Source: Rosistilla ulvae (lineage in GTDB: Bacteria > Planctomycetota > Planctomycetia > Pirellulales > Pirellulaceae). Taken from it: 64,000 nt of DNA. Of the stretch, positions 26,227 through 47,710 are shown piece after piece; position 1 is the stretch's first letter; the number at the start of each line of letters is the position of its first letter. The translations under genes and the position numbers were made by a program. The notes beneath the pieces were generated by a model. The model saw only the letters and a list, made by a program, of their open reading frames with translations, was not told the origin of the DNA and did no database searches. The DNA is taken from NCBI RefSeq assembly GCF_007741475.1, contig NZ_CP036261.1, forward strand, positions 3,845,798 to 3,909,797, read 5' to 3'.

Positions 26227-28296
26227 CTACTCGTCCGAACGATCATCGACTCGATAAAGGTAGGCATTGCCTTTCTTTTTGAAGCGAATTTTTCCCGAGT
26301 CACGCAGATGCGCCAACGCACATGTTGTCAGTTTCAGTCGCTTTCGCACTTCGGCGCTGCGAAGCCAGCCTTGGTCGGGTGATTGGGTCAGCCGAGGCTC
26401 GACCTCCGTGTTCCAATAGCTCAACCTTCCGATCCGCGACTTGTCGACATGATCGAGCATCATCCATTCAAGCGAGCGTTGCTGACTCTCTGCGATGTCG
26501 AAGCCTTGATAGTCGTCGGCAACAAACAGCCATTTGTGATGGTAGATGTACGGATCAGCAAACGCTGGATGCAATTTGATCCCCCCGTCGAGATGAACCA
26601 CAGCATAGCCCCCCGTAGACGGTTCGTGGGCAGTGTCGAAGTCGGGGCAATGAATGAAACTAACGTTGCCGTTCATTTCGTTGTGTTTGACTACAGTGTA
26701 TTCAAACTCAGCGGGTAGTTTGCCCTTGGCCTCCACCACCACTTTGCCAAGCACGTGTTCGTATTGCCGATGGACGTAAACCGCTCCACCAATCCGTTTG
26801 CCCACCCCGTACCTCGGGCATCGTTTTGGCAGCGACACCTTCGGCTTCGACTGGTTTTGCGACGACTTGATCAATCGATGGCCCCGATGTTCGAACCCCA
26901 ACGCCTGCAAGTTTTCCTGCCAAACCGATTGAGTAAGAAAGTCGTCCTCATCGCGAAGCAAACCATGCTTTACCTCCTGATTTGTCAGCCGTTCAAACTT
27001 AGACCGCCGATCATCCTCGGTATCGAGCATCCGATTTTTGCGGTCCAGTAGTGGCGGGTCTATTCGACTCTTTGTTTCGTAGTAGCCGACTCGCAGCGTC
27101 CGTAGCCAGACCTTTGTCGTTTCGGTTGTGATCGGATGCGGCACCGAATCAAAGTCAGGACAAGCGAGGTAGGAGACCTTGCCCGAAAAGCGGTGAAGCT
27201 TGATGAGGTTGGCGTCCTCGATGCTGCCGAGATAGGCGCGAGCACACCCCTCGTAGATCCGAAGCAAGGGTTCAAGTTGATCTCGGACACTCTCGTGTAT
27301 CCAGAGCGAACTGGGGCACAGCCGTCCAATCGAAGATCGCTTGCATGCGGCATCGATTTCGTCTGGATCGCCGGCACGGAACATCAGCCGGTCGGCCTCG
27401 TTGCATGCGTTCTTATAGTTGGCGAAAAACGCTTTGACGTCCCGCTGGAACTTGATTGACAGCTCGGAAAACTTGGGTCGCACCCCGAAATTCGCAAGCG
27501 CCAAATAGACCAGTAAATCCTCGCTGCGTTGCTTGCGAACCCGCTCCCAATCATCCTCCGAAGTAACGCGTCGGATGAGCCCAAACGCCCGTTTGAGCGA
27601 CCCAAACGTATCGACAACCTGTTCCGACAATGCAAACTCATCGGGTTCTGGCAGCCGCCCCAGTTCCGTGATCGCTTCGATCAACGCATCGAGAACCTCA
27701 CGGTGTGCCTCGTACCGAACCTCCGCAATCCGCTTTCGTGGCGCGGCAATTCTGCGGTGATACTTAGAAGCCAAATAGTTCGACTTCAGCTCTTCGTCGC
27801 GGAAAACGTAAAACACGCCCGGAGCTGCCGGAAAACACTCCTGTCCTAACGTCGCCTCCACGTACTGCCGCAGTTCGGCTTGCGTGAAATACTTTTGGAA
27901 CGTACCGATTCGGGTCAGAACGCCATCGCCATATTCGACGTCACCGCCACTCTGGTCGCTGACAAGAATACGTGCCGCGACGCAGAGCACTTGTTCCGCT
28001 AGCTGCCAGGCCTCTTTCAAGGTGTCCGCTCGCTCCTGGACGTCTTCGATAACATTCAGCACGAACCCGAGGTTTACGACCGGCGCAGACAACTTAGGCG
28101 CATCGGGGCGAAACGCAGGATCGAACCCACCGCACTCGATTCCCTCAGCCTTTAGAGCGGCCAAGTCATCACCGTGGCCACAACCGAAATCGAACATCGC
28201 CCGATGCTTGTTAACCAATTGGTCACGGACCAAACATTTCACGGGAAGCGAATGCTCATGCCGGCGAATGGCAGCCTTGTGACGCTTGACCTCCAA
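26227..28296 (-). CDS. DNA phosphorothioation-associated putative methyltransferase
   Basis: The frame is open from ATG 28338, but that ATG abuts the T-run of a terminator. TTG 28296, with GGAG seven bases upstream, starts exactly at the conserved EVKRHKAAIRRHE and is preferred (689 residues). The N-terminal domain has the SAM-binding signature FDFGCGHGDD near residue 38, GGFDPAFRP, and VVNLGFVLNVIEDVQER. This order matches the family described as a dnd-associated putative methyltransferase (TIGR04096-like). The C-terminal half has two similar blocks (LIKLHRFSGKVSYLACPDFD and VSFIHCPDFDTAHEP) that look like an internal duplication. The target of methylation is unknown. It is the last gene of the island. 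Confidence 0.8.
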   Translation of the reverse strand: MEVKRHKAAIRRHEHSLPVKCLVRDQLVNKHRAMFDFGCGHGDDLAALKAEGIECGGFDPAFRPDAPKLSAPVVNLGFVLNVIEDVQERADTLKEAWQLAEQVLCVAARILVSDQSGGDVEYGDGVLTRIGTFQKYFTQAELRQYVEATLGQECFPAAPGVFYVFRDEELKSNYLASKYHRRIAAPRKRIAEVRYEAHREVLDALIEAITELGRLPEPDEFALSEQVVDTFGSLKRAFGLIRRVTSEDDWERVRKQRSEDLLVYLALANFGVRPKFSELSIKFQRDVKAFFANYKNACNEADRLMFRAGDPDEIDAACKRSSIGRLCPSSLWIHESVRDQLEPLLRIYEGCARAYLGSIEDANLIKLHRFSGKVSYLACPDFDSVPHPITTETTKVWLRTLRVGYYETKSRIDPPLLDRKNRMLDTEDDRRSKFERLTNQEVKHGLLRDEDDFLTQSVWQENLQALGFEHRGHRLIKSSQNQSKPKVSLPKRCPRYGVGKRIGGAVYVHRQYEHVLGKVVVEAKGKLPAEFEYTVVKHNEMNGNVSFIHCPDFDTAHEPSTGGYAVVHLDGGIKLHPAFADPYIYHHKWLFVADDYQGFDIAESQQRSLEWMMLDHVDKSRIGRLSYWNTEVEPRLTQSPDQGWLRSAEVRKRLKLTTCALAHLRDSGKIRFKKKGNAYLYRVDDRSDE

Positions 28297-28338
28297 ATAC
28301 CTTCTCCACCTATCAGAAACAAGGTTCCCACCAACCAT

Positions 28339-28370
28339 AAAAAGCCCGAGCCACTTACGACTCGGGCCGC
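28339..28370 (-). terminator. Rho-independent terminator upstream of the methyltransferase
   Basis: Reading the minus strand, GCCCGAG (28367-28361) pairs with CTCGGGC (28350-28344) and is followed by TTTTT. It is a compact GC stem with a T tail, directly after the AIPR-like gene. It should end transcription coming from the rest of the island, so the methyltransferase may need its own promoter or read-through. Confidence 0.75.
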
Positions 28371-28382
28371 AAACATCCCCAA

Positions 28383-29762
28383 CTACTTGTTTGCATGAAG
28401 CATGACCTGAACCTTGAAGGAATCCTGAGCGATCTTGTAGGAACTCTGTTGCTTGCCGACCTTTGCTGGATCGAAATTCTGCCCTTGCATCATACCGTAA
28501 TACGAATCGACGATCGTATCCAGGTGGTCTTCTATAAACCGGTAGGGATTTACCTTCCAGCTGACAACCCCTTGTTTACATTCCATCAACTCACGAAGAG
28601 CAAAAACCAACGGCATGATAAATCCCTCACCGTAGTCAAACTTAACTTCGCGGGAATAGAACTTTGTTTTTGGTGGCCGCTTCAAATGCTTGGGATTATC
28701 AGACCGAACGTTATCAGCTTCAAAAAAACGAACGCCTGTGATCTTCCCAAATTTTTTCCCGTTGTTGTTCGCAGAGATTGGCATTTTTTCATAAATCAAA
28801 TCGTAGAGCTTCGGCATGTCCTTCATCATTACTAGTGCGCTCTGAACCCCCTCATGCACCACTTCGATAATCTCACCCTTATTCTCAATTTTTTGGCTTA
28901 TACCTTCATGCTGAAGCATCTCGTTGTAAAGACTTACACAATTGCCTTTTGAAGAAAAAATCATCGTAGAGAGATTGTCAATCTTTTTTTTAAGCGAAGC
29001 ATCACTTGAAAAAACATCTTCTGGCAATACAGACAGGGGGATAAGGCTCAATGCCACCAAGTCTCGTGACTTGATCCTCCCACCATCGTTGGACTTCCAC
29101 TCGACGTCTCTGGCCAAATTTATGTCAAGATTTTTCTTGATCTCTTCGTAATACCCCGACTTATTGGCCTTGGTCGATTCCGTCAACTGAGCGTTATTGT
29201 TTCGAGCACGGTTAATATCAAGAATCGCGTTTGTGAATTCGTCGCATCCATCTGATTCATCAATAGGATAAATAACTTCCATCGGAATAAGAAAATCAAT
29301 TTCGTCGCGAATGGCTTCTATCTGGTCAAGGTAATTCGCCCATACAGGTTGCAACTCCTTCCACGTTTTAACTTTTCGAAGAACGAGATCGGCTTCCTCA
29401 CCGAGTGCTTGCCGAAGGATATAACGAGCAATCGCCAAAGTATTGTGGCCGCCATCAAGTATTCCTTCGAGTTCGGGATCTTCAAATCGAAGCCTAACTC
29501 GATTTCGCTCGAGCAACTCCACCTCACGGCAAGCAACTAACAAACCTTTGCTCTTATAGTGGAACAGCTCCGGGCAATCGGTAAGGCAGTCTTCAATTTC
29601 TTTCGTCACGGCCCCTTTCTTGGCGACACGCGGGTTCGCCTCGAGGTCTGCCCCCGTGATTAAGTCAATGAAAGAAGGTGCACGAACATCTCCGCGAATA
29701 CGATTGAGCTTGTGTTGTGAAGCCTTAAAGTCGTCGAAACGTACGATAACAGAACTTTTCAA
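28383..29762 (-). CDS. AIPR-like protein with GGHNT motif, in Dnd island
   Basis: The start is taken as TTG 29762, with GGAG eight bases upstream; the frame is open to 29801. The ~459-residue protein is not classical DndB. The order NPRVAKKG, LFHYKSKGLLVAC and GILDGGHNTLAIA parallels the AIPR (abortive infection phage resistance) domain, where NNG and NGxQT occupy the same places. It also echoes the DGQHR motif of DndB. N-R-A-R-N-N-N-A-Q-L follows in the middle. Codon use here is visibly more A/T-rich than in its neighbours, suggesting separate acquisition. The function is unknown; a sensor or effector role in defence is inference. It is separated from the upstream nuclease by 211 bp and followed by a terminator. 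Confidence 0.6.
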   Translation of the reverse strand: MKSSVIVRFDDFKASQHKLNRIRGDVRAPSFIDLITGADLEANPRVAKKGAVTKEIEDCLTDCPELFHYKSKGLLVACREVELLERNRVRLRFEDPELEGILDGGHNTLAIARYILRQALGEEADLVLRKVKTWKELQPVWANYLDQIEAIRDEIDFLIPMEVIYPIDESDGCDEFTNAILDINRARNNNAQLTESTKANKSGYYEEIKKNLDINLARDVEWKSNDGGRIKSRDLVALSLIPLSVLPEDVFSSDASLKKKIDNLSTMIFSSKGNCVSLYNEMLQHEGISQKIENKGEIIEVVHEGVQSALVMMKDMPKLYDLIYEKMPISANNNGKKFGKITGVRFFEADNVRSDNPKHLKRPPKTKFYSREVKFDYGEGFIMPLVFALRELMECKQGVVSWKVNPYRFIEDHLDTIVDSYYGMMQGQNFDPAKVGKQQSSYKIAQDSFKVQVMLHANK

Positions 29763-29973
29763 AAGAATGTCTCCAAATCCTGGAGACCAGCCGGGTAGCA
29801 TCCCGCGACACAGCGATGTCGTTGCAGAAACTTCCAGCCAGTCTACCGACTAACTTAAACCTAGTTCCCATCCGGGAACAAACCCTCTCTTCCGGGAGGG
29901 TCGGGCCACCACATGCAGCCACCCCAAAAGGGTACCCACCCAACATACATTGGTCAAGTCTTTGAACCGAGGT

Positions 29974-30882
29974 TCAAAGAAATATTGAAAGTCGGCGCGC
30001 GGGAGACCGAAATACTTCCTTTCGGTGCCAGCCGATGAAGTCTGGCGACGGTGAATGAATCTTACTTTGTGGAGGACGGATTTCAATACCGTGATGGTTC
30101 AATAGCCAGTTCGTAAGACCTTGCGTCCCATGCACCCACTCCGAAACTAACAACGTTCGATCGTCGGAGAGACCGATTGCCCCCCGGTCGAAAAGCTTGT
30201 GATGCAAGGAACACAATGCCAGCCCATTTTGAACCGTGTCTGGACCGCGGGCCTGGTACCATTTGATATGGGCGGCTTCTAGGCCAAGCGCCCGGCCGCC
30301 CATTCGCAAATTCAACCCGCAGATTGCGCAACGATACTCGTAGGCAGTTAGAACTTGGTCCCGAAATTTTGGATCACGTTTCCGTCGCTGGATAAGCTCG
30401 ACTGCGTCTTCTAAGCCGACGGAGTTAAGAATTTCTTGATGGAACGATTCAGGAAAACACCGGTCTAACAGGTCTGAGGAAACTCGCTTGATCAACGATC
30501 GATCAAGCTGGATTGCATCGTACAGGTCAGCGGTGAGCCCACCGGTTACATCGTGTTTGAGCAGTTCGCTCTTCTTAGCGTCCCTGTTGCTTTTCCGGCT
30601 TTCAACGTTTTCAGTGTTTACAAGTTCCCAAATCCCGTCGTTCTGGAGACGCCAGAACGGGTACTCGCTGTGATACGATTTTCGCGGCGGACCAAAGGCT
30701 TCAAGCAACTCTCTAAGCGGTCGGTCGATTTCCGAGTACGGGATGAGTCGCTCGGCCCCCAATGCGTACTTGCCCAGGACAAGCAAAACTAGAAGCGGCT
30801 TGTGCGGAGCACGTTCATCGCCCCGTTGCCAGACCTTCAAGGCTCGGAACTGATCGAGCAACGAATTATATTCTGTCGCCAA
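29974..30882 (-). CDS. Sulfur-binding-domain HNH endonuclease (phosphorothioate-dependent restriction type)
   Basis: The start is TTG 30882, with AGGAG ten bases upstream; the open frame to 30981 would overlap the upstream gene. The ~302-residue protein begins with a domain bearing RAPHKPLLVLLVLGKYALG and SEYPFWRLQNDGIWEL. These are the motifs that shape the sulfur pocket in SBD proteins such as ScoMcrA. The C-terminus is an HNH nuclease: CAICGLNLR, EAAHIKW, QNGLALCSLHHKLFD, with the two His, the Asn and zinc Cys residues present. Characterised relatives cut DNA near phosphorothioate links. It follows the dnd-associated small gene by 37 bp, so it is probably co-transcribed with the modification operon. 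Confidence 0.8.
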   Translation of the reverse strand: MATEYNSLLDQFRALKVWQRGDERAPHKPLLVLLVLGKYALGAERLIPYSEIDRPLRELLEAFGPPRKSYHSEYPFWRLQNDGIWELVNTENVESRKSNRDAKKSELLKHDVTGGLTADLYDAIQLDRSLIKRVSSDLLDRCFPESFHQEILNSVGLEDAVELIQRRKRDPKFRDQVLTAYEYRCAICGLNLRMGGRALGLEAAHIKWYQARGPDTVQNGLALCSLHHKLFDRGAIGLSDDRTLLVSEWVHGTQGLTNWLLNHHGIEIRPPQSKIHSPSPDFIGWHRKEVFRSPARRLSIFL

Positions 30883-30919
30883 ATGCCGATGACTCCTATA
30901 TGCACAACCAGGCAAAAAC

Positions 30920-31462
30920 CTACAACTGCATGTCGAGCATATCCAGCAGCGGGTCGCGGACGTCTTCGGTGGCCGACTCATCCATTTTGACGCAGTCTAT
31001 CTCGCCCATGGCGGTCAACATCAAATCCCGAATTCCACTTTCGTCAGAACGTCGGTCGTCGAGCCATTTGAAACCGGCGTGAGCAAAGCGATCTAGCAGC
31101 TCCAATCGCTCCGCCATTCGCTCTTCAGAAATCAAATCCAGTTGGCACGACAGCGATTGCGGAACCGTGTCGTGATCGGTTTCGGCAATCAGTGCCACAG
31201 CTGTTGCCAATTCTTTTGCGCCAGCGGCACCAATGAACACAGAGTCACGAATCGACGTGTTGTCCTTCTTAGCCTTTGGCATCGACTCGGCTGGTGTCGG
31301 TGAGTTGAGCGCCATCGCTATCGATGCAGCAAAAACATAGGCGTCTCTTTGATCCTTGAATGGACCAGTCTTGGTCGAACCAGCCAGGGACGAAACCTTC
31401 CCGGAGGCAATGAGCGCATCGAGAATATCGCGATGCTCGGCATAAATAGTGGCATTCGCCAT
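30920..31462 (-). CDS. Dnd system-associated small protein (dnd_assoc_4-like)
   Basis: A 180-residue soluble protein with no signal or membrane segment. The layout HRDILDALIASGK, FKDQRDAYVFAASIAMALN, then LLDRFAHAGFKWLDD resembles the family described as dnd system-associated protein 4. The match rests on pattern recall and is moderate. It lies 12 bases after the Rad50-like ATPase gene and 37 before the HNH nuclease gene. It is probably a subunit or regulator of the restriction module; its activity is unknown. Confidence 0.6.
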   Translation of the reverse strand: MANATIYAEHRDILDALIASGKVSSLAGSTKTGPFKDQRDAYVFAASIAMALNSPTPAESMPKAKKDNTSIRDSVFIGAAGAKELATAVALIAETDHDTVPQSLSCQLDLISEERMAERLELLDRFAHAGFKWLDDRRSDESGIRDLMLTAMGEIDCVKMDESATEDVRDPLLDMLDMQL

Positions 31463-31474
31463 GATAAGTTGATC

Positions 31475-33607
31475 CTAACCAAGTAAGGCGATACGGGTGC
31501 GGGCGGAGGAAACTTCGGGATGATTGATGCTGTACGTGTGGTCCTTCCCGCCCCAAGTTACGGTCCGGTTGCTGGTCTGATTGGATGTCAACTCCATCAC
31601 GTAGGCTTTGCCCACTTTGTCCGCAATGGCTTCCCACACCGCCACCGATTTGGCGGATACGGGGACGATGATCTGCGGCAGGAGCTTCGGCAATGCCTGC
31701 ACAACATCAACCTCGTATTCTTCGTCTAGCGGGCTGGTCGGGGCATCTAAAACGACTGGAAATCCGGTGCGTTTTGACGTCTCAACGTTGCCGGTCATCG
31801 CCAATTGTTGCCCTTCCCTCGCGATCTCCTCATAGTGAGGTGCCAAGCGAGCGATTGCACCGAGAAACGCGATCAGCAACAGAACCTTCTCGGACTGGGA
31901 CAGCGGCACCGTCGCACCGCCCTCTGTGAGTTTGACCCGAATGCCAAACCCAGAATCGACTTTGACAACGTAAGGTTTCGCGATCAGATCGTTGTAGGTT
32001 TCATTGATCGCTCGCTCGAAGTCCTCTCGCCCAAATTCATTGAGACCTTGGCGGGCGGCGTCGAAATAGCCTTTGGCGTCCGTCAGAATTTTGAGAGCTT
32101 TCGTTTTCTGCATATGCTCAACGGATTGACCGGACTTCTCTTCAAGGTTCTTCAACGCGTCGTCATGTATCTTTTTCAACTCGTCGAATTTGACATGGAT
32201 TCCGGTCAATTCGTCGCTGATCGCGTTCACACGATCTTGGGCGTTTATATATAGCTCGATTGGGCTTTCACCAATCTCAGGACGTTCAAATTTCGATTCA
32301 GTTACGAAGTCGTCTAGGTCTTGTTTCGCTTGGCGGTGAAGACTGCTACTTACCGTAATGCAAGATCTAACGACGGAAGCGAGTATCTTAATACTGGCTT
32401 CTTTGGGAGGTGGATCGAGCTTCAATTCGACGGCCAACTTTTCAACTTCTTCACGAAGACGATCTGCCTCGGTGCCTCTTCTTTCCAAGAACTGTTTCAA
32501 AGTCGTTCGTGCTTCAAGTCCTCGCACCGCAATTTGAGCGTCACCGACTCGGTCACGGAGCTTTTGAACCCGGTCTTTTGTCTGGTCGTCAAGCGGCGTG
32601 CGGCAAAGAGCGCAACACCCCGTTTCAAGAGATTTTTCCAGTACGGACTCGTGAATCCGTGGAGGCATCAAGCCGGCCGTCTCTGCCAAATCGAGCCGAC
32701 GAATCGCTGACTCGCAAACGAACTGAGCCATATGCGAATGAGAGCCTCGGGAGAGATCCACGTAGAGGGCATCAGCGCGAACCACTATTTGCTCGGCGTC
32801 AGTGACCAATTTTGTCAGTCGGGTGTTCTTATCCGACCACTTCTTGATCTCATTCGGATCATAGCGATCAGCTTCTGACTTCGCCTTGGCGGCCAGCGTC
32901 TTCGCTTTTAACAAGAGTTGCGGAAGGATGTCTTTGCGTTCCGTGACAGCGTCGAGGTTCGCCTCGGCTTGTTCGTACTTGTGGCGAGCCAAGTTGACCG
33001 CCTCTTGGCCCTGGCCACCGCTTGGAACCTTCAATGTGCTGCTTTTCTTGGCATCACGAATGTCATCGCTCGCGTGCTCATAAATGTCGCCAGACAGCAG
33101 GGACCTGATCGCTCGTCCAACATCAAACGCAGCGCCCTCACCACCGCGATCGCCCTTAAGCACGTTTGCAGTGCTAAACGTTTCTGCGGGGAAAAAGAAT
33201 AGATCTTTGAGAGGTTCAGGCAAAATGCGGTGAATGTCCGCCTCGACCGCACGTTCACCGTTTCGCGTCACAACCAAATCATAGTCAGATGTGACTTGAC
33301 GACTGGCGTTGGTTGATCGGCGAACCGAGTACTCGTCGGATTCGTGTTGCAATCGAACCTCGACAAATGTTTCAGCGGATGGGTCAATTTCTGACGCGCC
33401 CAGATTGACCAGGCGATCGGTATGGTCAAAGCCCTCAGTGAATTCACCATAGATTGCCCAAGTGAACGCATTTAACAAAGCGGTCTTCCCCGCTCCATTC
33501 GGCCCAAGGAGCAAGGTTACTGGTCGCTCTGGGTCAACGGAAAACACGATTTCGTGTTCGCCATGGAATGAACGCCAGTTTCGCATCTTCAACGAGACGA
33601 ATTTCAC
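31475..33607 (-). CDS. Rad50/SMC-like zinc-hook ATPase of the Dnd restriction module
   Basis: The start is GTG 33607, because AGGAGG lies seven bases upstream and the fold begins at KFVSLKMRNWRSFHG; the longer frame to 33895 runs through other genes. The 710-residue protein has Walker A GPNGAGKTALLNAF near residue 35, a long coiled-coil, a zinc-hook-like CCALC near the middle, a second coil, signature LSQSEKVLLL and Walker B VVLDAPTSPLDEE. It is thus a DNA-end or DNA-loop ATPase of the SbcC/Rad50 kind, distinct from DndD. Its start overlaps the 60-aa gene stop by four bases. It probably powers DNA cleavage or scanning together with the helicase. Confidence 0.8.
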   Translation of the reverse strand: MKFVSLKMRNWRSFHGEHEIVFSVDPERPVTLLLGPNGAGKTALLNAFTWAIYGEFTEGFDHTDRLVNLGASEIDPSAETFVEVRLQHESDEYSVRRSTNASRQVTSDYDLVVTRNGERAVEADIHRILPEPLKDLFFFPAETFSTANVLKGDRGGEGAAFDVGRAIRSLLSGDIYEHASDDIRDAKKSSTLKVPSGGQGQEAVNLARHKYEQAEANLDAVTERKDILPQLLLKAKTLAAKAKSEADRYDPNEIKKWSDKNTRLTKLVTDAEQIVVRADALYVDLSRGSHSHMAQFVCESAIRRLDLAETAGLMPPRIHESVLEKSLETGCCALCRTPLDDQTKDRVQKLRDRVGDAQIAVRGLEARTTLKQFLERRGTEADRLREEVEKLAVELKLDPPPKEASIKILASVVRSCITVSSSLHRQAKQDLDDFVTESKFERPEIGESPIELYINAQDRVNAISDELTGIHVKFDELKKIHDDALKNLEEKSGQSVEHMQKTKALKILTDAKGYFDAARQGLNEFGREDFERAINETYNDLIAKPYVVKVDSGFGIRVKLTEGGATVPLSQSEKVLLLIAFLGAIARLAPHYEEIAREGQQLAMTGNVETSKRTGFPVVLDAPTSPLDEEYEVDVVQALPKLLPQIIVPVSAKSVAVWEAIADKVGKAYVMELTSNQTSNRTVTWGGKDHTYSINHPEVSSARTRIALLG

Positions 33608-33786
33608 GACGCTGCCTCCTGTTGCTTCGCGAGTTGCAACGCCGACGTCGCGAACTCGTCGGGCAGCTTCGACCGGTCTGAGAAGCGCTTCTGGTGCTCC
33701 GCCGCCAATACCTTTTTCACAATCTGCTTCGCCTCCGGCGACAGATCGCCGGCGAGTTTTTTCATTCGGTCCTGAAAAGCGCTCAT
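33604..33786 (-). CDS. Tiny conserved-position protein between helicase and ATPase genes
   Basis: A 60-residue protein (MSAFQDRMKKLAGDL...LAKQQEAAS), charged and helical with no cysteine or membrane segment. Its ATG overlaps the helicase stop (ATGA) and its stop overlaps the ATPase GTG (GTGA), so it is translated in a chain with both. I do not recognise a family. The strict coupling suggests a stoichiometric small subunit. Confidence 0.7.
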   Translation of the reverse strand: MSAFQDRMKKLAGDLSPEAKQIVKKVLAAEHQKRFSDRSKLPDEFATSALQLAKQQEAAS

Positions 33787-38659: not shown

Positions 38660-38768
38660 GGTTCCATCGCTGGGCAAGATCAAGGTCCTGGGATTTGAAG
38701 ATTAAGACAGGCAACAGTTTACGCGACCGAATGTCCATGTGCCACCTAGTTCAGCGGCACGCGGCGAC

Positions 38769-39131
38769 CTAAGTGATGGCCAGAGAAGCCAGGTCAGCAA
38801 TTGACTTTACTTGCCGGCTCAATGCAATCACACCCCGATTCAAGTGAGCGCGAAAGTAGTCAACTTCAACGGCGTCATCGGGCAGTTCGTCGTTGAGCAT
38901 CCTTTGCCGAAGCATTGCGACGTACAACGCGTCCCACTCACCAAGCAAGGTGTAGCGATTGAACTCGCGATCCTCTTCTGGGTACTCGCCTGGATCGGGA
39001 ATGGCTGGATCGCTTAGCGACATACAAAAACCGATGCGGCTTAGGATGTTTGGCGTCAGCCCAGTTCTTGCCTTAAGTTGCTTCAAACGATCGGACGCAT
39101 CTTTGGTCAGTTTGATTTTGTTAAGATGCAT
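38769..39131 (-). CDS. dndE: DNA sulfur modification protein DndE
   Basis: A 120-residue protein beginning KIKLTKDASDRLKQLKARTG then LTPNILSRIGFCMSLSD, the DndE N-terminal signature. The length is usual. DndE binds nicked double-stranded DNA and works with DndC and DndD to place sulfur in the DNA backbone. Its ATG lies inside the dndD stop region (overlap of 11 bases), so translation is coupled. It is the last of the five modification genes. Confidence 0.93.
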   Translation of the reverse strand: MHLNKIKLTKDASDRLKQLKARTGLTPNILSRIGFCMSLSDPAIPDPGEYPEEDREFNRYTLLGEWDALYVAMLRQRMLNDELPDDAVEVDYFRAHLNRGVIALSRQVKSIADLASLAIT

Positions 39132-41166
39132 TCGTCAGTTCCTGGTTGCGATGGTTCCAGAAGTAACCTTCGCTCACGACGGTTCGCCCTTGGGACTGCT
39201 CGTAGCTGAGGTGGTAAACGTGGCTGAGGTGAGGCTTGAGGTCGTTGAAGTATGTTTCGTCGATTTCCGTGTCGGTGCTGAGGATGATGACTTGGTGGCT
39301 CGCCTCGGGAAAATAGTGCTCGACTAAGTGCGAGCGGTGCTCGCCATCGAGCCGGCCCAGGGGCGTATCGATCACCATCGGCAAGGGGCGTCGTGACACT
39401 TCGGCCAGTCCCCAAAGCATAGAAATGGCATACATCTGTTTTTCGCCGGCCGATAGCTGGGTCTTGGGGACTACGCGATCGTGACGATCGTAGAGCTTGA
39501 CAATGAATGAGATCGGGTCGATTTCGATGCGACGAACGATATCGCCCTTTCGCCAAAGTTGTTGAAAGCGGCGGCGGACACACTGCGCGAGCTCGCGGGA
39601 CTTGTCGGCGGTGAGCTCCCTGACGTATTCCTCAAGTGCCGCGTTCACGCTTTCCACCATTTGTTCGCGTTCGCCTTGTTTCTCGGCTTCGCTCTTTTTG
39701 TCTGTCAGTTTCGCCTTGCGACTACGTTCTTCCTTCAGGGAAAATTCGGCACTGCTGTACTCAGCTAATGCTCTTTTTAGATCAGCATCCGCGCCGCCAA
39801 TCTCGCGGTTCAAGTCGTTTACCCGCTCAACAAGTGGCCGCAATTGGTCCTCCTTCGGAGCCTTCTTTAAGGCCGCCTCAGTTTTTTGCAAATCGCGAGT
39901 GTCGGTTTCGAGTTGGCCGATCACCTTCTTTGCCCTATCAGGTACGTACTCCGTTGCACCTCTTATGCCTTCAAACAATGACTCTTTAAGATCGCTGGAC
40001 AAACGATGGACCAACTTCACATCAGGCAAGCCTTCGGGTGGTTCGCCCAACTTGCCAACCATCTGTGTGATTCGGTCGGCAAGCACGCCACGCGTTTCAT
40101 CGGTCAGGCCGTCGATTCCAGCAAGTTCTTTTCGGGTCGCTATGTGAAGTCGCTCTATGCGTTCTTGCAGAAGTGTTCGATGCGAGCGCCAGCCTTGGAC
40201 GCGGTCTTCGTTCTTGAGTTGGTTCGTGAGGTCTCGGCAAAGAGATTTAGCGAGCGAAAATGGTAGCAAGCCTTCCGCTAGCTGTCGCAGTTGATTTTCG
40301 GCATCTTCGATCGCGGTCCGCAATCGCTTCCGATCTGACTCAAGCTTCCCACGAACATCGGCGAACGCACCGCCTTCTTTCGCGATGCGGGCTTCAGTGG
40401 CTGCGATTTGCTTGGCAATGTCGTCAACACGCGACTGAGCTTCATCGAGGGCAATTCGGGATTTCAAGTGACGGTCTTGTTTGTCTTGAATCTCCTTCTC
40501 GACGTTGTCGAGCTCTTTTTGCAGCGTGTCGATATTGTCGAGCTTCTGTAGTCGGTTAGCATAAATTTGCAAGTCGCCACTCAAACGTTCCACCAAATCA
40601 AGACCAAGCAAACTACGAATAGCGTCGGACAGCGCAGCGTCGTCGTCATCGGATTCGGCAAGTTCTTGGATTTTTTCACCATCGAAGAAGTAGAGCTGAG
40701 ACACACCGGGCGGAATCAGATCACGCAAAAAATCGTCGGCGTGTGCGTGATCGAGATCGTCAATCGGGTCCCCATCGCGTTGAACCAGCAGATGCGTCTT
40801 AATCTTCTTGGTACCGATGTCCCAACTTCGTTCGACCGTGTAGCGATGGCTTTTGCCGAGCTCGGAATGTTCAAACTCTAACGCAACCGAAGCGGTTGTA
40901 TTCATCACCAGAGCGTCGTCGTTGCGGTGAACGCGAGATCTAAGGTACTCTTCGTATTCGCGTGCCGATACGCGGGAGCCTAGCAGCAATGGCCCGTATA
41001 GGCAGAGCCGCACGGCTTCGAGGATCGTTGTTTTGCCGGCGCCGTTCTTGCCACCGACCAGTATAACAGGACGCTCTTTGTTGTATTTGACCTTGGGTAG
41101 CAAATCAAATTCGGTCACACCTCGAAAGAGGCCAAAGTTATTCAGTCGTAGGGTATGAATTCTCAC
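39121..41166 (-). CDS. dndD: DNA sulfur modification ATPase DndD
   Basis: A 681-residue SMC-like ATPase. It begins RIHTLRLNNFGLFRGVTEFD, with Walker A GGKNGAGKTTILEAVRLCLYG near residue 35, LYFFDGEKIQELAES near 180 and a long coiled-coil centre. The signature LSAGEKQMYAISMLWG and Walker B MVIDTPLGRLDGEHR lie near the C-terminus. It matches DndD in length and motif order. DndD is thought to nick or open DNA using ATP so that sulfur can be inserted. GTG 41166 overlaps the dndC stop by four bases and the 3' end overlaps dndE. Confidence 0.94.
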   Translation of the reverse strand: MRIHTLRLNNFGLFRGVTEFDLLPKVKYNKERPVILVGGKNGAGKTTILEAVRLCLYGPLLLGSRVSAREYEEYLRSRVHRNDDALVMNTTASVALEFEHSELGKSHRYTVERSWDIGTKKIKTHLLVQRDGDPIDDLDHAHADDFLRDLIPPGVSQLYFFDGEKIQELAESDDDDAALSDAIRSLLGLDLVERLSGDLQIYANRLQKLDNIDTLQKELDNVEKEIQDKQDRHLKSRIALDEAQSRVDDIAKQIAATEARIAKEGGAFADVRGKLESDRKRLRTAIEDAENQLRQLAEGLLPFSLAKSLCRDLTNQLKNEDRVQGWRSHRTLLQERIERLHIATRKELAGIDGLTDETRGVLADRITQMVGKLGEPPEGLPDVKLVHRLSSDLKESLFEGIRGATEYVPDRAKKVIGQLETDTRDLQKTEAALKKAPKEDQLRPLVERVNDLNREIGGADADLKRALAEYSSAEFSLKEERSRKAKLTDKKSEAEKQGEREQMVESVNAALEEYVRELTADKSRELAQCVRRRFQQLWRKGDIVRRIEIDPISFIVKLYDRHDRVVPKTQLSAGEKQMYAISMLWGLAEVSRRPLPMVIDTPLGRLDGEHRSHLVEHYFPEASHQVIILSTDTEIDETYFNDLKPHLSHVYHLSYEQSQGRTVVSEGYFWNHRNQELTNAS

Positions 41167-42641
41167 TCGTTGTCCTCGTCATCGGCCTCAGATGCTGCAA
41201 TCAATGCATCCACCTCCGCTCGCGCCCGTATCTCTTCTTTCCAGTCTTCGCGAAACACTCTGTCGATCTGCTTAAAGATGCCAGCACGGCGACTCATCCC
41301 TTGCATGTCACGTTCAAGATCTAGCAACTTGCCAACCAACCGAGTCGGTACGTCATGCCTTGAACAAACCTCCTGCAGCAAAGATGCGTCGGCGCTGGTC
41401 AGGCTTGTGACATCATCAATAACGCCAGGAAGTTCCTCGCCGGTGACTTCGCGATATATCTTCGGAACCGAGTCTCGCCAATCTTGTTCCTCGGTTCGCC
41501 AGATTTTGCGAATCTCACCAAGTTCATCCTCGCGGATCAATCGTGCATTGGGGTCTGGCCCTTCGCGACGGATACGTTGTTCGATCTCCAATAGCTCGCG
41601 GAGCATCTCGCAACGGAACTCGAATAGATATGGACCAGGAATTGGCGTTCCCTCCGATCCATCTTCGTTCTTCTTACGCCATACTCGCCCGTCGCGTCGT
41701 TTGATTGATCGAATTTTCCTTTTTACCTCGGGAAGGCGATGCGTTGCCAACTTGTTGCGGAAGTCCAGCAGCGGTTCCATCCACTCTTCGCCGTTGTCTA
41801 CGAGCGACTCCATCGAGTGGTCTTTCTCGACGACAGTGCAAACCCAGCATCCAAAGCGGCTGTTGCCGCATGACGGCGTGCTGTTGTCTACGACGAGTGG
41901 ACACTCACCGCCAGCCGCACTCTTGTACATTCCGACGAGCTCGCTGTTGTCAGCCCCCCATGGTGATCGTCCATTGTCACCTTGGAGGATATACGTCCAA
42001 ACGTCGTTGGTTGAAAACTCTTCAATCGGTGCGTAAACGAATGCGTTTAAAAGCGTGGAGTGCTTCCGCAGACGGGAACCATGAATCTCGCGGTTCTTCA
42101 TCACCTGGTCACGCGTTGCACTCTCGCCACGACGTGCCCCCAAAACCATCACAACTTCGCCGAATTCAGCAACGCGGCCAAGAATAAACTTATCGGCCGG
42201 GCTGATCTTCATTCGTGCGGTACACCACCTGAAACGTGTCGTCGGTGCGGGGTAACCTTTTCCTAGCAGGCAAACCCAGAAGGTATCGGAGACTTCAGGA
42301 ACAACTTTGTGCGCCTCGAAAGGCAAGCCTTCGGCTTTGGCGGCTGAATTAATTGCATCGAGGTTAGTGTCGATGTGCCCAACGATGACCGGTGTTTCGA
42401 CGAATGTGTCCGATGAAATGACGTAAACAGTCTTTTGACGTTTCTCGAGTGGGAGGGCCTTAATCGCCATCCAAACCAACTGCAGTGTCGCCGTCGAGTC
42501 CTTGCCACCGCTGTAGCCCAGTACCCAAGGGGCGTTGTCAGCCAAGTAAACGTCTTGCACTTCTGCGATGAATGCGTCAATCGGTTTTAAATCGAAAATC
42601 GAGTTTCGCTCATTTGCGACTGCGGGGATCTTGATCTTTGC
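41163..42641 (-). CDS. dndC: DNA sulfur modification protein DndC (PAPS reductase-like)
   Basis: The start is ATG 42641; an in-frame TTG at 42683 is possible, and neither has a clear ribosome site. The ~492-residue protein has the ATP-pyrophosphatase P-loop GYSGGKDSTAT near residue 40 and the iron-sulfur cysteines in CPLVVDNSTPSCGNSRFGCW followed by VC. These are the DndC features. DndC adenylates the DNA backbone or carries sulfur from the cysteine desulfurase through its 4Fe-4S cluster. It lies after dndB and overlaps dndD. Confidence 0.94.
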   Translation of the reverse strand, partial: AKIKIPAVANERNSIFDLKPIDAFIAEVQDVYLADNAPWVLGYSGGKDSTATLQLVWMAIKALPLEKRQKTVYVISSDTFVETPVIVGHIDTNLDAINSAAKAEGLPFEAHKVVPEVSDTFWVCLLGKGYPAPTTRFRWCTARMKISPADKFILGRVAEFGEVVMVLGARRGESATRDQVMKNREIHGSRLRKHSTLLNAFVYAPIEEFSTNDVWTYILQGDNGRSPWGADNSELVGMYKSAAGGECPLVVDNSTPSCGNSRFGCWVCTVVEKDHSMESLVDNGEEWMEPLLDFRNKLATHRLPEVKRKIRSIKRRDGRVWRKKNEDGSEGTPIPGPYLFEFRCEMLRELLEIEQRIRREGPDPNARLIREDELGEIRKIWRTEEQDWRDSVPKIYREVTGEELPGVIDDVTSLTSADASLLQEVCSRHDVPTRLVGKLLDLERDMQGMSRRAGIFKQIDRVFREDWKEEIRARAEVDALIAASEADDEDNE

Positions 42642-42696
42642 CATAATGGATTGGAGGCCAAGCTTGTAGCGAGTCTCGGCCAAATTTGTTAGCGAC

Positions 42697-43803
42697 TTAT
42701 CGTTCGGAAGGTTTGTATTGCTGGAGCTTCGCTTCTTGTTGCTGTTCGGCTGCGGATAGAGAAAGTCCGAGCTGCTGCTTCAAATAATTAGTGGTTAGCA
42801 CTACATTCGTCAGCGCCTTGCTTATCTTACCGCGAACCAGTGCCCTACCTTCCCAAACTTCGCCGTTCTTACGCGACCAATCGATTTTCGCGATCGGCTT
42901 CAATCGCCGCTTCCAACCGCTGGGGTCATCTGCGAGCAACGACGCTCCCATACCGCCAAGCGCTTGCAATGCAATCCCGTGCGCATGAATAAAATCGCGA
43001 CGAAGTTCGGCGCACGCGACCTTTTTATCGACGGCAAGCCCCCAATCCGGAATCAGCTTACCCGTTTCTTCCCAAAAGCTAACTGCCAGGTCTTTTTCGT
43101 GAGCAGCAACCTTTGAACGCTTGGATTTTCCTAACAGCGTTCGCGTTGCTTGGTAAATACTGCTTAGAGTGTGAAGCTTGTTAGTTCGGTTAGAAATTGT
43201 CGTCTTTTCTGTTTCTGTAAGAACCGCAAAGAAACTTACCTCGTCGACAACGTGACGGGCAAGTTGAGACAGTGGGTCGCGATGATCGTACAATATGCCC
43301 AAAGACTTAGTCGGCCGTATTGCATGCCGATTCAAATCTGAAAACATCTGCTGACTGCGTCTTAGCCCTGCATCGTGGAAGAACACGACGGAAATTGTTT
43401 CATCCCCTAACTCAGGACGTTCCTTAACAGCTTCCTCAATAGCCGCCCTTCGATGCTGCCCGTCATTCACCAGAAAGCGTGACGTCATTGGAACGCTCAA
43501 TTTCCCAAGGTTTTTACCAGCCCCATTCGCCTCAAATGGCTTGAATTCAACATTGCCATCAATGGATGCGGTAATGGACGAGAAGATGTAGTCTTTAGGA
43601 TTTTCGACGATATATCTCGTTAATTCCGGCACACGAGAACGATTAATTGATCTCTGCGCGCGCAGCTCAGCTCCGACTTCTTCTTCATCAAACACGAAAA
43701 ATTTTGCGACCACACGTAGCGGACACATCGCGCCGTAATACTCGCGACCAGCTTGAACACCACGAATCGCGGAAAACGTCAACACATTGTCTTCAGATCC
43801 CAT
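42697..43803 (-). CDS. dndB: DndB, DGQHR-domain regulator of DNA sulfur modification
   Basis: A 368-residue protein with the diagnostic FLVNDGQHRRAAIEEA near residue 115, and SRVPELTRYI and IFSSITAS before it. GGAGGTGAGGC directly precedes the ATG at 43803. In other systems DndB represses the dnd operon or adjusts modification frequency and is not strictly needed for sulfur insertion. Here it sits between dndA and dndC, with 96 bp between it and dndA. A short direct repeat (GGAAGTTAAACC-like) in that gap could be a binding site. Confidence 0.93.
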   Translation of the reverse strand: MGSEDNVLTFSAIRGVQAGREYYGAMCPLRVVAKFFVFDEEEVGAELRAQRSINRSRVPELTRYIVENPKDYIFSSITASIDGNVEFKPFEANGAGKNLGKLSVPMTSRFLVNDGQHRRAAIEEAVKERPELGDETISVVFFHDAGLRRSQQMFSDLNRHAIRPTKSLGILYDHRDPLSQLARHVVDEVSFFAVLTETEKTTISNRTNKLHTLSSIYQATRTLLGKSKRSKVAAHEKDLAVSFWEETGKLIPDWGLAVDKKVACAELRRDFIHAHGIALQALGGMGASLLADDPSGWKRRLKPIAKIDWSRKNGEVWEGRALVRGKISKALTNVVLTTNYLKQQLGLSLSAAEQQQEAKLQQYKPSER

Positions 43804-43899
43804 GCCTCACCTCCGCGGAAGTTAAACCCCAAGCACCGGAAGTTAAACCAACCTGAACTGGAAGTCAACTGCACAGCGATCTTCGGCTTCCAAGTTCGT

Positions 43900-45063
43900 T
43901 CAACGAACGCTAAGTTTGCGAAGTTTTTTCGCAGCAACCGAAACGAGTGTGATAACTCGTTCGATTTCTTCCATCGTGTTGAATCGCCCGATGCCGAAAC
44001 GCAGGCTTGATGGAATCAGGCTGGGTTCAATTCCCATCGCGATAAGTACGTGGCTCGGCTCCGGCGCAAGCGTCGTGCAAGCCGATCCTGAACTCACCGC
44101 CAGGTCGTTTCGCAGATTTAGCATCAGCGCATTACTGTTCACCCCAGGTATCGAGACATGGAGACTACCTGGCATGCGTTCCGTTTGATGCCCGTTGAAT
44201 TGAATGTCGACGACCGATGCCGCAAGACCGTGGCGAAGTTGATCGCGAATCTCTGCCAGACGCTTTGATTCAACTTCGCGGTTTGCTTTACAAAGCCGGC
44301 ACGCTTCCCCAAGCCCGACAATTTGATGCACTGGCAACGTCCCGCTTCGCATTCGCCTCTCATGCCCTCCGCCTTCGAATAGAGGCTCAACCCTAATACG
44401 GGGCGTTCCTCGGCGAACATAGAGTGCTCCGATTCCTTTTGGTCCATACATTTTGTGAGCAGACAAGCTCAGTAGGTCAACGGGCATCCTGGAAAGATCA
44501 AACCTCACCGTTCCAACGGTCTGCGTTGCGTCCGTATGAAATAACACACCCGCCCGTCTGCACGTCTCGCCAATTTTGCAAATCGAATTGATTGACCCAA
44601 CTTCGTTGTTGGCGTGCATAACCGACACAAGCGCGGTGTCTTTGCGAATTGCAGCCCGTACAGTACTCGGGGAAACCATTCCGTACTCATCCACCGGCAA
44701 AACGGTGATATCGTAGCCCTCACGTTCGAGCCTATGGGCAGGATCTAAAATAGTCTTATGTTCAGCTGCGCTGACAATCAAATGCTTCCCGTTTGCTGCA
44801 GCTCGCATTACGCCAAACAAAGCAAGGTTATTGGCCTCGGTCGCTCCACTCGTGAAGACAATCGCTTTTTCGTCACAACCAAGCAAATTTGCGACAGCTT
44901 CACGCGCCTCACTCACTGCAGCTCCCGCAACCAGCCCGTACTCATGCGTAACGCTAGATGCATTCCCGAAGTGTTCCGTCAAGTAGGGCAACATCTTTGC
45001 AACAACAACGGGGTCAGTTCGTGTTGTCGCATTATTGTCCAGATAAATGGGCTTTGCAGTCAT
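43900..45063 (-). CDS. dndA: Cysteine desulfurase DndA (IscS-like)
   Basis: The start is ATG 45063, with an in-frame GTG at 45087. The ~387-residue PLP enzyme opens PIYLDNNATTRTDPVVV. The PLP lysine is in LSLSAHKMYGPKG and the catalytic cysteine in SSGSACTTLAPEPSH. It fits IscS/NifS/DndA in length. It supplies persulfide sulfur from cysteine to DndC. Its place as first gene of the dnd set supports the DndA assignment over a general IscS. Confidence 0.92.
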   Translation of the reverse strand: MTAKPIYLDNNATTRTDPVVVAKMLPYLTEHFGNASSVTHEYGLVAGAAVSEAREAVANLLGCDEKAIVFTSGATEANNLALFGVMRAAANGKHLIVSAAEHKTILDPAHRLEREGYDITVLPVDEYGMVSPSTVRAAIRKDTALVSVMHANNEVGSINSICKIGETCRRAGVLFHTDATQTVGTVRFDLSRMPVDLLSLSAHKMYGPKGIGALYVRRGTPRIRVEPLFEGGGHERRMRSGTLPVHQIVGLGEACRLCKANREVESKRLAEIRDQLRHGLAASVVDIQFNGHQTERMPGSLHVSIPGVNSNALMLNLRNDLAVSSGSACTTLAPEPSHVLIAMGIEPSLIPSSLRFGIGRFNTMEEIERVITLVSVAAKKLRKLSVR

Positions 45064-45779
45064 GTTCTTACTCAGTTCAAGTCTCACTGGCGGTTTATCC
45101 GCATTTTACCCCTGGCCGGAAGCGCTGGAAGCGGTCTGACACCCACCTTCGCAAAACACGCCTCCCCAAACGCAAATCGCCCAGAGAAAAAAATAATAGC
45201 GAAGCGTTTGCTGAAACTCTTAAAACACAAAAAGGCCATAGCATTCGACCACACTTTTTCTTAGCGTCCAACAACTGGTGTGGCCAAAGAATGTTGATGT
45301 GTCGGCGACACTGCGTCCTACGCGGTTCAAGCCTGCTCCTCTCCGTTGCAGGAACAAGACGATTCTTAACAGCAGCCCCAACAGGAGAAGAAGCTCTCAA
45401 AACGACTTGCGAAAATCGAACCGACTCGGAAAGTCCAGGCGGCCCGCGTCAAAAGAAAATTAAGGCCGAGCAGCCTCAGCCCACGAAAAACCAGCAATGG
45501 GCAAGCCTACGCACAACCGACGCATTGGCCCAAGAAACCTTCGACAAATAAGACGAGCCGCGTCAAACGAAAACCATTTGAGTAGATTTCGTCATCGATG
45601 ACGAATTCGAGATGGTTGGCGTGGCGGGTGCCCCGGCTCACCAGGCTAAGGCCGATCGAAGTGGTAATCAGGCCATTGTCGATGACGCGTTGCGAAAACG
45701 CTTGGCGGATCGTCCGGTAAAGCTGCTGGATGTTTTTCGCTGCTGGGACATGGCTTTGAGGCCTGGCGTTCTGCGTTTC
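45064..45779. other. Upstream region of the dnd operon, with possible gene relic
   Basis: About 700 bp. The part next to dndA (45064-45300) should contain the operon promoter, although I could not define boxes. On the minus strand, about 45540-45760, a frame without a start reads NIQQLYRTIRQAFSQRVID, then GLITTSIGLSLVSRGTRH and NHLEFVIDDEIYSNGFRL. It looks coding and may be a remnant or the frameshifted end of the GTQVV protein gene. I do not recognise it. TTCGTCATCGATGACGAA (45588-45605) is a perfect palindrome but lies in that frame. Confidence 0.35.
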
Positions 45780-46176: not shown

Positions 46177-47710
46177 CTGTTGATTACCCACAAGTCGCCG
46201 CAAAAACAGCTCGTTCTGGCACGGTATTTGCGCTTGTAGTATTTCATTTTGCACAATGAAATCTCAAGGTGAAAGCATGCAACCGACCAGTATCGCATAC
46301 GAATTTCAAGATATTCAACTTGGAGACAAACGTCTCAACGATCGAGCCGAAGCGTTGCTCGCCTCGCTGGCGGCCAACCCTTCGGCCAGTATCAACGAAG
46401 CTTGCAGTGGCTGGGACGAAACCAAAGCCGCCTACCGTCTATTGGATAACCCCAACGTCGATCCCGAAGCCATTCTCGGGGCTCACGCTGAAAAGACACT
46501 CCAACGAATCAAAGCCCAAGACACCGTTTGCATCGCACAAGATACCACCGAACTGGACTACACCGCGCATCCGCCCGAAGGCGTCCGCAATCTCGATCGC
46601 TTAGGCCGCCGTGGACTTTACGATCATTCCCACATCGCCTTCACGCCGGAGAAACTTTGTCTCGGGGTGGTCGGTGTTAAGTTCTACGATCGCGACAAAG
46701 AAGCGCTCGGCACCAGCAAGAAGCGAGAAGGCCAACCCCTACACACCGGCGAAGGGCAACGATGGCTCGATGGTTACCGCAAGGCCTGCGAGATCGCCGG
46801 AAAATGTCCTGAAACTCAGATCGTTTCGCTGGCCGATCGCGAAGGAGACATCTACGACATTTTCGTCGAAGCCGATCAGCATGAAACACCGGCTCAGTTC
46901 GTCATTCGCTCGCAGCGAAAACGCTCGTTGCCGGAGAAAGACCCCGATGGCGGGCCTGCGGCTTATAAGAAAATGCGTGCCGAAATCGCATCCGCCCAGC
47001 CGGTCGCTTACCGCGAAGTCCAGCTTCCCCAAACGCCCGAGCGAACCAAAGGATCAGGAAACAAACAACACCCCGGCCGTGAAGCACGCACTGCGAAGTT
47101 AGAAATTCGAGCGAAGCGGATGACTCTTCGTGCGCCACACAACAAGCAGTCTTCGATGCCGCCGGTCGAGATCAGTGTCGTTTGGGTGAGCGAGATCGAT
47201 GGCCCAGGCGACGGAACCGAAGTCGACTGGCTGTTTTTGAGTTCTCTGCCGGTCGACACGATTGCCCAGACGCTGCGGATTGTGGATTTGTATGTGGCTC
47301 GTTGGCCAATCGAAGTATTCTTTCGAGTTTTCAAAACTGGCTGCCGGGTCGAAGAGATTCAACTCGAAGCGAGAGACCGACTGATCCGCGCGTTGATGTT
47401 TTACAAAGTGATCGCATGGCGGATCATGTTTGTGACCTTCTTAGGCCGCGAGTGTCCAGAGCTTCCCTGTGATGTCGTCTTCAGCGAAGCGGAATAGAAG
47501 TCGGTCTGGAAAGTGGTGGAAAAGACGGCTCCCCCAAAGCAGGCTCCTGAGCTGTCTCGACTCATTGCGACCCTTGGCGGCTACAATCACCGCGAAGGCG
47601 ACGGTCCGCCGGGAGCCGAAGTGATCTGGCGAGGCACGCGGCGAATGCTCGACTTCGCCCTCTGCTGGCAAGCCTTCGGACCAGACCAATGACTTGTGGG
47701 TAATCGACAG
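46177..47710 (+). mobile_element. IS4-family insertion sequence, 1534 bp
   Basis: The left end starts CTGTTGATTACCCACAAGTC (46177-46196) and the right end (47691-47710) is its reverse complement with one mismatch. The ends are flanked by the 11-bp direct repeat CTTGTGACCTC. It contains one transposase frame. It inserted between two minus-strand genes, only about 16 bp past the stop of one and about 26 bp ahead of the start of the next. The intact duplication and near-identical ends suggest a fairly recent insertion. Confidence 0.93.
46256..47692 (+). pseudogene. IS4-family transposase interrupted by an amber codon
   Basis: The N-terminal ~60 residues form a Tn5-type transposase DNA-binding domain (FQDIQLGDKRLNDRAEALL, ACSGWDETKAAYRLLDNP). 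The DDE core follows with IAQDTTELDY and LADREGDIYDIF, and the C-terminal signature YVARWPIEVFFRVFK carries the IS4 Y-x2-R-x3-E-x6-K pattern. The frame stops at TAG 47495-47497 (residue 414). The same frame then continues, KSVWKVVEKTAPPKQAPELS to LGGYNHREGDGPPG and WRGTRRMLDFALCWQ, ending TGA at 47692. The stop replaces a probable Trp (EWKSV), so this copy is likely inactive or read through. Confidence 0.85.

Follow-up and report, generated by a model that had tools for sequence, protein, structure and literature searches.

The stretch analysed here (the window) is 64,000 nucleotides of DNA from Rosistilla ulvae, contig NZ_CP036261.1. In the open reading frame map of the window, positions 26227-45087 form a single run of minus-strand genes: dndA-B-C-D-E, a gene for a protein of 888 amino acids (P0006), a PbeA-B-C-D cassette, and genes for an SBD-HNH endonuclease, an AIPR-family protein and a Dnd-associated methyltransferase. 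Published work describes DndA-E as the writers of phosphorothioate and PbeA as a fusion of an HKD nuclease with an SF2 helicase, and proposes that the pair of ABC ATPase and DndE scans DNA (PMC10853773). PbeABCD was defined together with DndCDEA in archaea by Xiong (2019), who also described 235 further instances of pbeAC in bacteria (PMC6459918). Rakesh (2024) equated Pbe with CxC ABC-ATPase systems, counted 936 bacterial taxa that have DndDE and CxC systems in tandem, and described, in the Dnd loci of 698 taxa, HNH enzymes that carry both a winged-helix (SBD) and a SAD domain (PMC10853773). In view of these counts, a bacterial Dnd system accompanied by Pbe and an HNH nuclease is of a known kind, and Pbe beside Dnd is already published. 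The member that is unexplained by published Pbe descriptions is P0006, a zinc-ribbon protein with a sigma region 4.

The Pbe cassette and P0006

P0006 and the cassette that follows it comprise these genes:

36017-38683, minus strand: P0006, zinc ribbon, sigma-70 region 4 and tandem winged helices (Pfam, SigA match, AlphaFold)
33783-36017, minus strand: pbeA (P0007), PLD (HKD-type) nuclease and SF2 helicase (PADLOC PbeA, 664 bits)
33604-33786, minus strand: small open reading frame in the pbeB place (position and size only)
31475-33607, minus strand: pbeC (P0008, from a GTG at 33607), ABC ATPase with a CxxC apex motif (PADLOC PbeC, 189.7 bits)
30920-31462, minus strand: dnd_assoc_4-like gene in the pbeD place (P0009; position, and TIGR04062 at 32.4 bits, below the cut-off)

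An earlier, sequence-only reading of this DNA had described a PLD-SF2 helicase, a 60-residue protein, a zinc-hook ATPase and a dnd-associated small protein, and had likened them to the Pbe-type partners of archaeal Dnd systems. These parts correspond to PbeA, the PbeB place, PbeC and the PbeD place, respectively, and the likeness to Pbe was borne out by the PADLOC scores, the PbeA match spanning residues 11-709 of P0007. The archaeal framing, in contrast, understated the distribution of the module, Pbe beside Dnd being widespread in bacteria (PMC6459918, PMC10853773); on the same grounds, an archaeal-type system strayed into bacteria was ruled out. PbeA scored 403.8 bits with TIGR04095, under the cut-off of 600, and H144, K146, G302, K305, D422 and E423 were invariant across four aligned PbeA sequences. 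The frame in the pbeB place, which encodes 60 amino acids from its second ATG or 63 from the first (at 33795), had no pbeB profile match; frames of 49-82 amino acids occupy the equivalent place in other loci. The CxxC motif of PbeC was spotted by eye, and P0009 (180 amino acids) reached 32.4 bits with TIGR04062 (dnd_assoc_4), for which the cut-off is 74.25. The start/stop overlaps reported by the sequence-only reading are all present in the sequence: TGATG between P0006 and pbeA (an overlap of 1 nucleotide), ATGA between pbeA and pbeB, and GTGA between pbeB and pbeC.

P0006 begins with a zinc ribbon, recognized by eye, which is followed by a long stretch of low conservation. Residues 435-487 form a sigma-70 region 4; its Pfam score (sigma70_r4, 19.6 bits) is below the gathering score of 24.1, but it matched the solved region 4 of SigA (E = 2e-4). 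The recognition helix reads VTRERVRQIE. The Pfam scan gave no match to sigma region 2 at E values up to 0.5, so that a full sigma factor was rejected, nor did it match the C-terminal domain of the RNA polymerase alpha subunit (alpha-CTD). The MzaA equivalog model scored 22.7 bits (cut-off 800), on the sigma region 4 part only. For residues 610-888, AlphaFold predicted two winged helices and a beta-rich domain, with a mean predicted local distance difference test score (pLDDT) of 67.6 from four aligned sequences; the full-length model was poor (mean pLDDT 42.2) and was not used. Foldseek searches with the C-terminal model gave no match at E 0.001 or better, with SelB winged helices among the top rows. 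A B3/EcoRII-N-like domain was considered and found no support: hhalign gave 0.4% against four EcoRII-N relatives, no B3 chain appeared in the PDB profile search and the Foldseek rows were weak (E = 0.023 and 0.13).

An ATG at about 38659 is a likelier start for P0006 than the TTG, and the gap to dndE measures about 85-110 nucleotides. Within this region (38640-38775), GTGCC ... GGCAC form a short inverted repeat that may be an operator or a terminator. The C-termini of P0006 (near 36017; VSDPLLDLLGGF) and of P0009 in the pbeD place (near 30920; VRDPLLDMLDMQL) resemble each other and could form a common docking tail. The resemblance is weak, being the best of 78 pairs in the window, equalled in score by 178 of 200,000 random pairs of C-termini and found in none of nine other loci.

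Sigma region 4 genes at other PbeA loci

With P0006 as the query, no relative was found in the genome_contigs, viral_contigs or phages collections, and 294 genomes of the same phylum yielded only fragments of the size of the sigma region 4 or of the zinc ribbon (in 24 of them, its own genome included). The first lead came from a search of plasmid proteins, in which an Arthrobacter plasmid was found to carry a relative of P0006, alike from the sigma region 4 through the winged helices, directly before pbeA, with dndD, dndE and a TIGR04096 methyltransferase gene nearby.

We assembled 77 PbeA loci: 57 from genome_contigs (80 of 113 confirmed loci were sampled and 57 of these counted as PbeA), 3 from genomes of the same phylum (flanks of 1.2-1.5 kb), 2 from viral contigs and 15 from plasmids (15 of 22 records, some of them picked because they were annotated as sigma-like). 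Genes were detected with two profiles seeded with P0006. A sigma region 4 or P0006-family gene was present in 18 of the 77 loci, in all 18 on the strand of pbeA. The sigma region 4 profile, which favours genes that keep the helix motif, provided 17 of these, and the remaining one (L036) was found by the family profile only. The positives include three L. plantarum plasmids, two of them with identical PbeA, and two close Rhodobacterales plasmids. Since some plasmid records were picked for their sigma-like annotation, the genome_contigs set provides the less biased figure, 10 of 57, or 6 of 38 among loci with at least 2 kb upstream and at least 6 kb downstream. A DndC match was present in the available flanks of 15 loci, five of which have the gene.

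Only two positions were used. In 12 of the 18 loci the gene lies directly upstream of pbeA; eleven of these genes end between 55 nucleotides inside the pbeA frame and 8 nucleotides before it; the twelfth, that of L033, adjoins the first of two pbeA frames. In the other six it stands at the pbeD end, five times directly after pbeD and once (L046) with one open reading frame between. No such gene was found at any other position in the available flanks of the 77 loci. Among 59 control loci without PbeA (955,209 bases), matches occurred only in six loci chosen for this family and in L108, that is, in 1 of the 53 unselected controls.

The helix motif (T/S)RER(V/I)RQ is kept in 17 of the 18 Pbe-linked genes and lost in L036. 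Among relatives encoded away from Pbe on plasmids or chromosomes, it is lost in four (L031, L034, L035 and one of two in L032) and kept in three (the second of L032, L150 and L151). L031, L034 and L035, from Mycolicibacterium and Mycobacterium plasmids, are stand-alone P0006-family proteins of about 600 amino acids; on the Microbacterium plasmids L150 and L151, family members sit beside genes for UvrD-type and DUF4011 helicases with no PbeA, perhaps as the same subunit in another defence system.

The named hosts of the positive loci belong to four bacterial phyla: Actinomycetota (Arthrobacter, Streptomyces, Nocardioides), Bacillota (Lachnospiraceae, Thermincola, Lacticaseibacillus, L. plantarum), Pseudomonadota (Rhodobacteraceae, Pontibrevibacter, Ruegeria, Aurantiacibacter) and Campylobacterota (Sulfurimonas). 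Two other bins, one bin labelled Methanobrevibacter and one IMG/VR contig complete the set. The counterparts measure 350-1308 amino acids. Of ten that were scanned, nine have a sigma region 4 above the Pfam gathering score and five match alpha-CTD (three above gathering); the only match of L036 is of the Lsr2 DNA-binding type. Region 2 is above gathering in three (L041, L042 and L048) and was not seen in the other seven. The genes with both regions lie directly after the pbeD place (L041:14903-16063, L042:14848-15900, L048:14882-16489), and in all three loci a cysteine-desulfurase-like gene precedes pbeA. The presence of regions 2 and 4 in L048, the bin with the archaeal label, suggests misbinning. 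The IMG/VR viral contig (L118:6517-9918) encodes a 1133-residue alpha-CTD/sigma region 4 protein directly before the PbeA gene. In Aurantiacibacter, a DNA methyltransferase gene stands before pbeA and the sigma-like gene after the pbeD place, which indicates that the sigma region 4 partner is not tied to phosphorothioate.

The closest layout was found in plasmid islands of Ruegeria sp. THAF33 and Pontibrevibacter nitratireducens, which have dndC-D-E, a cysteine desulfurase, a sigma factor-like helix-turn-helix protein directly before PbeA, a small protein, an ATPase and dnd_assoc_4. They differ from the present island in that dndA follows dndE and is itself followed by one opposite-strand gene before the sigma-like gene. 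The latter encodes 1017-1026 amino acids, has a weak alpha-CTD match and resembles P0006 only around the sigma region 4. More generally, BLAST showed P0006 to be alike beyond this region to only four Pbe-linked genes (L033, L036, L040 and L091), and the position is therefore conserved more than any one orthologous protein.

On a quick PbeA tree without bootstrap, to which the window was added and from which L030, L092 and L158 of the 77 were left out, the presence of the gene requires eight changes, seven of them forced by starred branches. The PbeA of the window falls in one starred set with three actinobacterial loci that have the gene upstream and 15 mostly cyanobacterial loci that do not have it.

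These findings provide good support for the conclusion that P0006 belongs to the Pbe module, and a sigma region 4-bearing partner in a minority of Pbe operons looks new. No description of such a partner turned up in searches of an open-licence library of papers, supplements apart; the main text of PMC10853773 uses the word "sigma" once, for a DndH variant.

The Dnd genes and the genes behind pbeD

The remaining genes of the island are the following:

43900-45087, minus strand: dndA (P0001), DndA/IscS-type cysteine desulfurase (profile scans)
42697-43803, minus strand: dndB (P0002; TIGR03233, 497.4 bits)
41163-42683, minus strand: dndC (P0003; TIGR03183, 566.6 bits)
39121-41166, minus strand: dndD (P0004; TIGR03185, 527.8 bits)
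38769-39131, minus strand: dndE (P0005; TIGR03184, 91.2 bits; solved archaeal DndE 7x4e, E = 6e-29)
29974-30981, minus strand: SBD-HNH endonuclease (P0010; NF045808, 377.1 bits)
28383-29801, minus strand: AIPR-family protein (P0011; Pfam AIPR, 36.4 bits, gathering score 25)
26227-28338, minus strand: Dnd-associated putative methyltransferase (P0012; TIGR04096, 579.5 bits, cut-off 150)

The sequence-only reading had recognized five dnd genes in one orientation and no DndF, DndG or DndH, and it was right on both counts. DndB, DndC, DndD and DndE exceed their NCBIfam cut-offs (328, 290.4, 245.85 and 71.85 bits, respectively), and the dndD of the island is the sole above-cut-off DndD match of the whole genome. 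P0001 is under the NCBIfam cut-offs for DndA (445.7 against 480 bits) and IscS (474 against 548), while in PADLOC it scores 512 bits as DndA and 508.5 as SspA. As IscS-type enzymes are able to replace DndA (PMC7461809), this does not exclude a Dnd module. The ATG at about 45063 is a likelier dndA start than the GTG. No DndF, DndG or DndH model was among the NCBIfam and PADLOC matches listed for the 13 proteins (the best 25 families for P0001, P0004 and P0008). A search of the whole genome matched neither DndF nor DndH, but no control genome matched either, and DndG was not searched for. The G+C content of the island is about 48-55%, that of the left flank about 58-62%. Two different transposase genes (46256-47497 and 48926-50482) adjoin the dndA end of the island, on the right side.

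Compared with the closest published Dnd-Pbe system, the island is alike in the order of its genes: Dnd modification genes come first, then pbeA, a small frame in the pbeB place, the CxxC-type ATPase gene pbeC and a candidate pbeD. It differs by the sigma region 4/winged-helix gene before pbeA, by DndB, and by the SBD-HNH, AIPR and TIGR04096 genes behind pbeD.

P0010, whose true start is probably nearer 30920, resembles the phosphorothioate-dependent SBD-HNH endonucleases ScoMcrA, SprMcrA and EcoWI: it passes the NF045808 cut-off of 180 bits and matches the SBD of ScoMcrA (E = 7.5e-9), whereas profile scans gave no match to a SAD domain. At the four positions that we take to form the sulfur site of ScoMcrA, His and Tyr-Pro are kept and two differ, with Lys for Arg and Arg for Ala. 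Unlike those enzymes, P0010 is encoded downstream of its own host's Dnd and Pbe genes, a setting in which self DNA has to be spared. SBD-HNH-like genes were present in 5 of the 77 PbeA loci, and of the predicted enzymes of this type less than 3.6% may be linked to dnd clusters (PMC7461809). No AIPR-like gene similar to P0011 was found near the 77 PbeA loci, and the link of P0011 to the Dnd-Pbe system is uncertain. A gene similar to P0012 overlaps dndE in L033 and L040.

Possible roles of P0006

We consider it about an even call that the island combines a DndABCDE phosphorothioation module with a PbeABCD exclusion module to which P0006 is coupled as a fifth component, a DNA-binding adaptor. DndA-E would mark self DNA; P0006 would use its sigma-like helix together with the winged helices to bind DNA, and would direct the nuclease-helicase PbeA, with the PbeC-PbeD scanner, to unmarked DNA and thereby fix the loading site. 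Since the helix motif of primary sigma factors is kept while region 2 was not found, P0006 is expected to read promoter-like DNA or to act as an RNA polymerase adaptor rather than to work as a sigma factor. The SBD-HNH enzyme may serve as the second effector, sparing self DNA either because its sequence specificity differs or because it is regulated. This adaptor mechanism is inferred, and several observations weigh against it. The sigma region 4 score of P0006 is itself under the Pfam gathering score, and contact with PbeA is only putative. The gene is absent from 47 of the 57 genome_contigs loci and is thus not generally needed; pbeABCD worked in a haloarchaeon without a sigma region 4 gene (PMC6459918). 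Similarity to P0006 beyond this region is confined to four Pbe-linked genes, relatives are also encoded on actinobacterial plasmids with no Pbe gene nearby, and the presence of region 2 in 3 of the 10 counterparts scanned fits a transcription role.

A close rival, though a less probable one, is that P0006 and its counterparts are transcriptional regulators of the pbe operon, binding its promoter to repress or activate a dangerous nuclease module. The frequent region 4, the joint regions 2 and 4 in L041, L042 and L048 and the alpha-CTD matches in half of the counterparts scanned would suit such a regulator, and the gap before P0006 could hold a promoter. Against this, the genes use two places, one of them at the operon end, P0006 and seven of the ten counterparts show no region 2, and long winged-helix parts and sizes of 350-1308 amino acids would be unusual for a plain regulator. 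MZA systems offer a parallel that also suits regulation, a sigma-type protein, MzaA, lying within the defence operon in a few cases (PMC9523054).

It seems rather unlikely, but worth naming, that a subset of Pbe systems is coupled to transcription. The sigma region 4 subunits, some of them alpha-CTD-like, would then place PbeA at promoters or RNA polymerase, and an invader would be recognized when first transcribed, self DNA being marked by phosphorothioate or by methylation. Aravind and Iyer reportedly described in 2012 proteins that join features of the RNA polymerase alpha subunit and of sigma. Some Pbe-linked counterparts are alike in combining alpha-CTD with sigma region 4, whereas P0006 differs, with a zinc ribbon and no alpha-CTD match. 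MZA systems also contain an AIPR protein, as the island does.

That the sigma region 4 genes are passengers or parts of other systems, beside pbeA by chance or shared mobility, we regard as improbable. Most PbeA loci do not have the gene, and relatives stand alone on Mycolicibacterium plasmids or, on Microbacterium plasmids, next to genes for UvrD and DUF4011 helicases. Yet the genes occupy two fixed places on a single strand with overlaps of a few nucleotides with pbeA, which makes this explanation less likely; moreover, almost no unselected control locus had a match, and presence is clustered on the PbeA tree while having changed about eight times. Least probable of all is that the SBD-HNH enzyme, with the AIPR protein and the methyltransferase, is the true effector and the Pbe part secondary: its NF045808 score and the similar genes in five PbeA loci speak for it, but a cutter of phosphorothioate DNA encoded next to the genes that write this mark would turn on its own host unless the specificities differ, such enzymes may seldom accompany dnd clusters, two of the four presumed sulfur-site positions differ from ScoMcrA, and PbeA keeps its catalytic motifs.

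If P0006 is the adaptor proposed here, a partner with a promoter-reading helix would provide a testable handle on where the Pbe complex loads. This bears on the way in which Pbe stops virus replication although no cleavage is visible, and on how a partly modified genome escapes its own phosphorothioate-based defence. Tests of bacterial Pbe systems with pbeABCD alone may omit a part, and the presence of an SBD-HNH gene in the same gene run makes the paradox of self-attack testable at one locus.

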